A stretch of DNA of 9,754 nucleotides, from assembly GCA_020425885.1 (NCBI GenBank), contig JAGQRA010000964.1:1-9754 (forward strand), in the 5' to 3' direction. Origin of the DNA: Planctomycetota bacterium. GTDB lineage: Bacteria > Planctomycetota > UBA1135 > UBA2386. A program made the position numbers and the translations under genes. Each line of letters opens with the position of its first letter. Position 1 is the stretch's first letter. The notes below the pieces were generated by a model, which was not told the origin of the DNA, searched no databases, and saw only the letters and a program-made list of their open reading frames with translations. Shown here in pieces: positions 4,462 to 5,478 of this stretch.

Positions 4462-5478
4462 ATGGTGAGTCAACGCAGGTTCCGTCGTCTGTCTGTCTGT
4501 CTGTCTGTCTGTCTGTCTGTCTGTCTGACGACTCTGCTGTCGTCGAAGGGTCTTGCTCAGGTGCCGAACCCGACCCGCAGCGTTCACCCGGGGATCGCTG
4601 ATCCGGTTCCCGGAGCTGCGCTGCACGGCACGGCGCCGAAGCTGCAGTATGCCGACGGTCTCTGGAACAACGGCGAGGGTTTCGAGCTGGCCCCTGTTAC
4701 CCCGGATGCCGACACCGGTGGATGGTTCGATCACGACGCTGGGCTGGGCCTGACTGCGGCGGACATCAACCTGGACCAGGGCGGGTGGGTGTTGCAGCCG
4801 TACGGGAACCCTCTGCGGCTGTCTACTGGCACGCAAGCCGAGCGGGTGTCCGGCTATCTGCGGCCGGCGGGGTTGCCGTTGCCGACATGGCATCCCCGCT
4901 ACGGCAACGTTGGCCCGTACGTCGACCAGGGCGCGTTCGAAATCTTCCGTCCACTTGGCGTGCCGTATTCCGGCCAGAAGGTGCTGATCGTCATCCGTTG
5001 CTTCGCGACGGTGCAGTTTCCCGGCGTCTACGATCCTGCGCTTCCAATGGGGCAGCGTCGCTCGGTCAATTGGTACAACACCTACCGCGGCTACTTCAGT
5101 CCCGACGGGCTGGTGCGCGACGAGTTCGCGTCCGTCGTCACGGGCAACCCGGTCGTCGACTTCCAGCAGAACACGGATGACGACGAGGTCGGCCGTTTCC
5201 TGCCCGACATCATCGCGTCCTGGTACTTCAGCTCCGATCAGTCGGTCTACTACCCGATCGAGGCCTATCCCGTGCTGACGGTTCCGGGTCGTCAGACCGA
5301 ACTGAACGAGCAGCGCTACCTGCAGATGGTGCAGGCGCTCATGCTGTTGCTCCTGGAGAGCACCTGGCGCAACCCACTCGGCGCAACCAATGCGCTCACG
5401 GCCCAACAGATCGAAGACGAGGTCGTGGTCGTGTTCGACGGTGGCAGCAACGGCGGCACACAGTCGTGGGAGGTCTAG
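4462..5478 (+). CDS. Secreted protein of unknown function with a tetranucleotide-repeat signal peptide (putative phase-variable gene)
   Basis: This is a 338-residue protein. The N-terminus is a Sec-type signal peptide: basic residues R5, R6, R8 and R9, then a hydrophobic core at 10-27 built from three tandem LSVC units plus a leucine, then a likely cut after KGLA at residue 32. The core is encoded by ten GTCT units (4487-4527). The mature part is rich in Tyr, Trp, Pro, Gly and Asp, with many short beta-prone stretches and few helices, typical of an exported domain. A more helical stretch lies near residues 275-300 (QRYLQMVQALMLLLLESTW). I do not recognise a family or a catalytic motif. The cysteines of the LSVC units do not form a normal lipobox, because Val rather than Gly, Ala or Ser precedes them. 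The next gene starts two bases after the stop, so the two are very probably co-transcribed and perhaps translationally coupled. With one repeat unit more or fewer, reading stops at 4599-4601 (47 residues) or 4751-4753 (95 residues). Confidence 0.8.
   Translation: MVSQRRFRRLSVCLSVCLSVCLTTLLSSKGLAQVPNPTRSVHPGIADPVPGAALHGTAPKLQYADGLWNNGEGFELAPVTPDADTGGWFDHDAGLGLTAADINLDQGGWVLQPYGNPLRLSTGTQAERVSGYLRPAGLPLPTWHPRYGNVGPYVDQGAFEIFRPLGVPYSGQKVLIVIRCFATVQFPGVYDPALPMGQRRSVNWYNTYRGYFSPDGLVRDEFASVVTGNPVVDFQQNTDDDEVGRFLPDIIASWYFSSDQSVYYPIEAYPVLTVPGRQTELNEQRYLQMVQALMLLLLESTWRNPLGATNALTAQQIEDEVVVVFDGGSNGGTQSWEV
4487..4527 (+). repeat. Perfect (GTCT)10 microsatellite inside a signal-peptide coding sequence
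   Basis: Forty-one bases consist of ten uninterrupted GTCT units plus a final G, starting 25 bases after the ATG. A four-base unit is not a multiple of three, so any single-unit change shifts the reading frame. Three units (12 bases) encode one LSVC. No stop codon occurs within the tract in any frame. Long perfect tetranucleotide tracts in the 5' part of surface-protein genes are the known basis of phase variation in Haemophilus, Neisseria and Moraxella. The tract in this window is in the ON register. Confidence 0.95.

Follow-up and report, generated by a model that had tools for sequence, protein, structure and literature searches.

A GTCT repeat within a signal-peptide code: a candidate phase-variation locus for secreted proteins in Planctomycetota

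Leader-repeat switching, in which a repeat within the leader code turns a gene on or off, has until now been described chiefly in host-dwelling bacteria. The stretch of planctomycete DNA analysed here (the window, 9,754 nucleotides) carries a long tetranucleotide repeat in the leader code of a gene for a secreted-type protein. The question raised by this locus is whether the repeat acts as such a switch, and which protein it would control.

The repeat tract and the frame of gene 1

Ten perfect GTCT units, followed by a single G at 4527, occupy positions 4487-4526 of the forward strand. The tract begins after a gap of 25 nt from the ATG at 4462 that opens gene 1 (4462-5478, forward strand, 338 codons, stop codon at 5476-5478), and the gene is in the ON frame in the contig. 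The start scan places a ribosome binding site, AGGAGG, 6 nt upstream of this ATG (4450-4455, forward strand). The sequence thereby confirms the layout described in a first-pass annotation of this DNA, namely ten perfect units 25 nt into a gene with a strong ribosome site. Under a first-order Markov model, (GTCT)10 is expected by chance about 1.4e-20 times on both strands of the window, and a 40-nt tract of any tetranucleotide about 5e-15 times; the tract is also the sole perfect array longer than 16 nt in the window for units of 1-8 nt.

The tract codes for part of the predicted signal peptide (MVSQRRFRRLSVCLSVCLSVCLTTLLSSKGLA, 4462-4557, forward strand). As (GTCT)n encodes the peptide VCLS in all three frames, the tract would form the h-region of the signal peptide at any unit number. 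The extent of the signal peptide comes from an alignment, and its cleavage is predicted before Q33 or V34 from the ...AQVPNP sequence of relatives; in homologues with an intact N-terminus, the signal peptide sits just before AQVPNP or a similar motif. This position in the homologues, together with the AGGAGG site, favours the ATG at 4462 over a later GTG. The GTG, which lies after the tract and is the start of protein P0001, was rejected: it would leave the product without a signal peptide and contradicts the homologues. Recoding was likewise considered, as far as frame counts go, and set aside. Annotators should be aware that the start of a repeat-leader gene may be misplaced past its tract, as happened with P0001, and that such a gene may resemble a pseudogene in a metagenome assembly. 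A search with residues 1-40 for VCLS-type leaders elsewhere returned 82 candidates, none with E <= 10, and an Rfam scan of the window gave no match reaching the gathering score.

The GTCT unit is not divisible by 3 and lies within the 5' coding region, so that each unit added or removed would shift the downstream frame. We computed the products for n = 6-13 units. The gene 1 frame is restored only where n = 1 mod 3, giving 334, 338 and 342 residues for n = 7, 10 and 13, and the other unit numbers lead to early stops. On these points our computation agrees with the first-pass annotation, which had also given 47 residues for the gain of one unit (n = 11; the stop for n = 2 mod 3 lies at 4599-4601, forward strand). 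Its claim that the loss of one unit gives 95 residues, with a stop at 4751-4753, is mistaken because the tract abuts a TGA at 4526-4528 (forward strand), which serves as the stop for n = 0 mod 3: nine units read ...GTC TGA and yield 20 residues, and twelve units yield 24.

Leader repeats in relatives and across the phylum

A homologue search with gene 1 among 5.8 billion proteins gave eight matches, the window's own included, and a profile search gave 12; the four matches with an organism name are all from Planctomycetota (P0002, P0004, P0007 and P0011). The family was then sought in 154 genomes from the class of genome G001, where 11 genomes had matches by single protein and 14 by alignment. 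The window very probably belongs to this class, since its AsnS is 79-85% identical to those of G491, G503, G505, G501, G498 and G001, six of the 11 family genomes. AsnS of G483 and G492 has 42-43% identity to that of the window, and G481, G490 and G502 have weak matches only; G483 and G481, the source of many of the CT cases described below, are thus distant from the window by this measure. No shared neighbourhood beyond genes 1 and 2 was seen in the stretches of the relatives that were compared.

We examined the 5' ends of 21 loci (19 loci, the window and L001), counting leader repeats from 14 nt. At the site matching the window's tract, (GTCT)5 was found in G505, (GCCTGCT)3 in G503, (CT)15 in G501:C216 and (GGAA)4 in G498. 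CT repeats also occur in the leaders of G481:C104, G481:C145, three G483 copies (contigs C8, C46 and C20) and G501:C133, the last with (CT)7, and among these homologues the CT tracts range from (CT)7 to (CT)23. G505 is among the closest relatives (60% identity), and its (GTCT)5 stands at the same leader site with the ATG out of frame. This is the only place in its 5.5 Mb with at least four GTCT units, or with (GTCT)4G; at least four units were found in one other genome of the class, G412, outside any leader. In a sample of 392 genomes from the phylum, (GTCT)6 was found in one genome, in a restriction-specificity-like gene and not in a leader. Reversed sequence is uninformative as a control for GTCT, which read backwards is a rotation of itself.

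This tract of the phylum sample reads as (AGAC)7 at L002 1501-1528 (G027:C76:3925-3952), in an AT-rich stretch whose frame is split at the tract. The two half modules around it are presumably restriction-specificity-like, and the locus may be a restriction-modification specificity gene that is phase-variable.

The likely start is in frame in three of the 11 repeat-bearing loci (the window, G483:C20 and G501:C133) and out of frame in the other eight, whereas all seven repeat-free loci are in frame (G491:C3, G502:C103, G492:C71, G492:C27, G501:C78, G384:C220 and L001). Fisher's test gives p 0.004 for this difference, and 0.02 when L184 (G481:C62) is scored as out; this locus is ambiguous, with a CT run shorter than 14 nt, a ribosome-site ATG out of frame and a plain ATG in frame. 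G490:C93 and G494:C21, whose frames are not scorable, stand outside the comparison. Several starts leave room for choice: the repeat-free G502:C103 (L071) has an extra out-of-frame ATG 4 nt ahead of the in-frame ATG, L001 starts without a strong ribosome site, in-frame TTG codons lie near the out-of-frame ATG in L054, L067 and L063, and in L215 an in-frame ATG is as good as the out-of-frame one. We also noted that the body of one repeat-free copy with its leader in frame (G501:C78:8078-9975) is split between two frames near 8731-8776.

Copies within one genome differ as well. The three G483 copies share the same start context and have tracts of 26 nt (C8, OFF, 33 residues), 36 nt (C46, OFF, 37 residues) and 46 nt (C20, ON). 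They are 82-92% identical, and the C46 and C20 genes reach the ends of their contigs. Whether the copies are paralogues or come from different strains within one assembly, their tract lengths differ in frame. G486 has two galactose-oxidase-like copies with tracts of 30 and 26 nt, both out of frame and 82% identical over 3.7 kb; tract lengths differ by 2 nt between copies in G302 and by 4 nt in G241, and G501 has two leaders. Between copies and between species, related loci thus vary in tract length, some being ON and others OFF while their bodies stay open, and a single genome (G483) can hold several copies in different states.

Some of the bodies behind these tracts are constrained. In two OFF/OFF pairs, dN/dS is 0.27 (G483 C8/C46, 252 codons) and 0.21 (the G486 copies, 644 codons), which shows purifying selection on bodies that are out of frame as assembled. 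The G483 C46/C20 pair gives 0.21 over 81 codons only, and the value of 0.585 for G501 C216/C133 is not meaningful, as the second body is mostly gene 2. Constraint on OFF-frame bodies fits reversible switching better than decay.

The first-pass annotation had considered such a locus unusual for what looks like a free-living planctomycete; leader tracts are in fact no oddity of one planctomycete, being found repeatedly within the class and elsewhere in the phylum. Scanning the class for (CT)9 with any base but C after it yielded 52 places in 30 of the 154 genomes. The number of class tracts rises to 58 once five further (CT)10 places in the 11 family genomes and the second tract of one locus are added. 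A loose classifier was discarded, its cleavage pattern matching almost everything and 17 of the 58 tracts passing in reverse orientation. The strict rule, which was fixed after the results of the looser classifier were known, requires a body of at least 250 codons (or at least 30 to the end of the available stretch) with coding codon-position GC, and a leader with a hydrophobic stretch, a cleavage motif and a limited upstream frame. By this rule 24 of the 58 tracts pass in CT orientation and none in AG orientation; five of the 24 belong to family members and 19 lie outside the family, with one of the 24 (L118) doubtful. In the phylum sample 35 of the 392 genomes have (CT)9 tracts, eight of these 35 being in the class. 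Outside the class, 40 of 49 places were taken (41 tracts), and 11 of the 41 pass, with none passing in reverse. By eye, the leaders of two loci that pass, L118 in the class and L191 outside it, are unconvincing, while L114 and L115 look leader-like and fail; L055, an ON copy, fails because its frame is open too far upstream.

Among 29 passing CT loci (19 + 10), the start chosen by rule is in frame in three and out of frame in 26; six loci had no start. Random lengths would put one third in frame; the lower share seen here may reflect selection for OFF, errors in the choice of start or assembly errors. A Pfam scan of 18 CT-leader bodies left eight without a match at E <= 0.01. Above curated cut-offs were subtilase (two loci in G001), galactose-oxidase-like (one in G501, two in G486), LVIVD repeat (G420) and penicillin amidase (G484, in frame); a second LVIVD (G420) and DUF1565 and beta-helix (G364) matched more weakly. 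The bodies that Pfam names look like secreted enzymes.

Could the out-of-frame states be artefacts of assembly or sequencing? Tract lengths in metagenomes might be off by about a unit, which would create false OFF states and leave the window's own tract possibly mis-sized. The contigs are mostly short pieces of fragmented assemblies, repeats are error-prone, and the out-of-frame share among the CT loci is high (26/29). However, (GCCTGCT)3 and (GGAA)4, whose lengths should be difficult to get wrong, are out of frame too, the repeat-free homologues are in frame without exception, and errors would not explain why the tracts lie at signal peptides. The tracts, of 14-46 nt, also fall within the length of ordinary sequencing reads, which are longer. 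We consider this explanation very improbable.

Slippage without selection would account for the repeats in another way: a tolerant h-region would accept any hydrophobic repeat, chance would expand it, and its length would have no selected role. The repeat is indeed hydrophobic in all its frames, a truncated gene 1 (see below) would tolerate anything, and tetranucleotide repeats are described as generally not suppressed in prokaryotes (PMC4060949). Neutral slippage nevertheless predicts changes that keep the frame, whereas the units here are of 2, 4 and 7 nt, eight of the 11 loci are out of frame and the bodies are long and open. The orientation of the CT tracts (24/58 passing in the coding sense, 0/58 in reverse) and the presence of different repeat units at one site in several relatives also speak against it, and we judge it unlikely.

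Truncation of gene 1 and its link to gene 2

Gene 1 of the window is, on sequence grounds, a truncated relative of a secreted hydrolase-like family. The open frames of its nearest genome relatives have 1396-1511 codons, and the G502 family member has 643 open codons, or 1442 if one TGA is read through. The family carries the G-x-S-x-G nucleophile motif of alpha/beta hydrolases (esterase/S28-like) in the form G-x-S-N-G-G, of nucleophile-elbow type, in which G, S, G and G are invariant across the aligned family and N is nearly so. In the window this motif reads GGSNGG (5440-5457, forward strand), and gene 1 ends prematurely 6 residues after it, so that the window copy has no complete catalytic domain. 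Profile matches in the family are weak: Esterase (E 0.009) and Tannase (E 0.011) in P0002 and S28 in L001 (E 0.19), beside a match to PDB 3n2z (E 0.038) and FG-GAP-like repeats in L001 (E 0.0004, below the curated cut-off). A Pfam scan of the window's gene 1 body gave no match. The AlphaFold mean pLDDT is 54.7 for the window protein and 51.6 for the hydrolase part of L001, which is too low for either model to serve in a fold comparison.

The window copy appears to have lost about three quarters of its length, and its truncation means that the ON product is probably no working enzyme. The loss is most simply explained by a deletion within gene 1 that extends almost to the gene's end, an assembly collapse being the alternative. 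Truncation just after the nucleophile motif also makes a selected function of this copy doubtful.

Gene 2 (5481-6779, forward strand), for a secreted-type protein, has its ATG 2 nt past the stop of gene 1, with a GGAGG at 5468-5472 inside gene 1; its Pfam scan gave no match at E <= 0.01. Homologues of gene 2 sit directly behind full-length gene 1 in G505, G498 and G503, and the two genes therefore form an old two-gene unit. Because gene 1 of the window is shortened and ends 2 nt before gene 2, the tract may now chiefly gate gene 2, by a translational coupling that their positions suggest. A related arrangement is found in G501:C133 (L185 2388-3998), where a leader and 56 residues identical to the G501:C216 protein run in frame into a gene 2 homologue, with the (CT)7 of the leader also in frame. 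This suggests that a repeat-bearing leader has been reused by deletion. The same stretch, L185, holds a further partial gene 2 homologue at 4138-4491.

The window might also preserve only the remnant of an ancestral switch, gene 1 now being a pseudogene whose switching no longer matters. The end of gene 1 so soon after GGSNGG, the immediate start of gene 2 and the similar joining of a leader to a gene 2 homologue in G501:C133 are all in keeping with decay. Yet the gene 1 frame is open and ON, its codon-position GC past the tract (0.67/0.46/0.82) is coding-like, gene 2 is open and coupled by position, and the G501:C133 leader is in frame into its gene 2 homologue. We regard decay in the window as a serious possibility, though with somewhat less than an even chance.

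Two further features of this region were noted. A direct repeat of about 200 bp (6692-6888 and 8703-8895, in two ungapped blocks 96% and 87% identical) covers gene 2 at its 3' end and continues past the gene. Between the two copies of the repeat lies an AbiEi/AbiEii-type gene pair (7017-8494; Pfam PF13338 and PF08843), which looks inserted, with a duplicated flank. Third-position GC is 0.80-0.83 in genes 1 and 2 and the AbiE pair (4462-8494), 0.91-0.96 in the DUF2167, asnS, DUF1648 and SNF-type transporter genes and 0.87 in the first ORF; the stretch 4462-8494 may have been acquired or be under weaker constraint.

The proposed switch and its known counterparts

We propose, with a probability of roughly 80%, that the window locus is a leader-repeat translational phase-variation (contingency) locus. 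Slipped-strand mispairing at replication would add or remove GTCT units. With n = 1 mod 3 the secreted protein would be made (ON); the other two classes would end at 4528 or 4601 (OFF), and we infer that the change is reversible. Every ON state would keep a hydrophobic signal peptide, since all repeat frames encode VCLS, and its length would change by 4 residues per 3 units. The likely benefit would be stochastic bet-hedging, or cost-sharing in the production of large, costly secreted exo-enzymes. The same design stands on full-length family members (with CT, GTCT, GGAA and 7-mer units) and, with CT, on other secreted proteins of the class.

The first-pass annotation had likewise seen a contingency locus here. 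That reading gains from the repeats at the same spot in homologues, the eight of 11 out of frame and the G483 copies that differ in frame, the switching itself being deduced from these patterns; its suggestion of a role against phage or predators or in attachment found nothing pointing that way. A wider and more tentative picture, to which we give rather less than even odds, is of a Planctomycetota phasome of secreted exo-enzymes, with simple repeats of several different units as signal-peptide core. Most copies would be OFF and a minority of cells would export costly giant enzymes, in a stochastic division of labour over public goods, and the repeat-bearing leader would be a reusable cassette that deletions join to new bodies, as in G501:C133 and possibly in the window.

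The leader-repeat design thus recurs in a planctomycete class, and in other genomes of the phylum, where it sits on secreted proteins that look like enzymes and not on surface antigens of host contact. If confirmed in reads, this suggests that phase variation can be put to use in digestion outside the cell and in the social sharing of costs, beyond immune evasion. Phase variation in planctomycetes was unreported in the titles and abstract openings among the matches listed from the open-licence literature.

Four known systems invite comparison, each as described in the portions of the cited papers available to us. The closest in design is Neisseria opa, with CTCTT (also written CTTCT) repeats in the leader-peptide region (PMC5354566, PMC5320596): a multi-copy family with a repeat within the leader code, a unit that is not a multiple of 3 and copies that switch independently. 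The opa genes, however, code for outer-membrane proteins of a host-adapted pathogen, whereas here the proteins are long, secreted, enzyme-like and from Planctomycetota, and the units are GTCT, CT, GGAA and a 7-mer; the likeness is one of design, and homology of the bodies is not claimed. Helicobacter pylori oipA has CT repeats in its signal-peptide code, whose unit number switches the frame (PMC10564699). It shares with our CT-leader relatives the unit, the position and the mode of frame switching, but codes for an outer-membrane protein of a gastric pathogen, while several secreted families are involved here and the unit in the window is GTCT. In Neisseria pilC a homo-G tract in the signal-peptide region (PMC5354566) likewise switches the frame inside the signal peptide, the differences being a mononucleotide tract and a pilus-associated protein. 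Tetranucleotide repeats mediate phase variation in Haemophilus influenzae (PMC2651432), whose contingency loci resemble the window in their unit length but act on surface structures such as lipopolysaccharide; the available portion of that paper does not state a tract in a signal-peptide core. The window locus would thus work like the leader-repeat phase variation of opa and oipA while being placed in neither family; it differs from them in its lineage, in the range of repeat units and in bodies that are enzyme-like.
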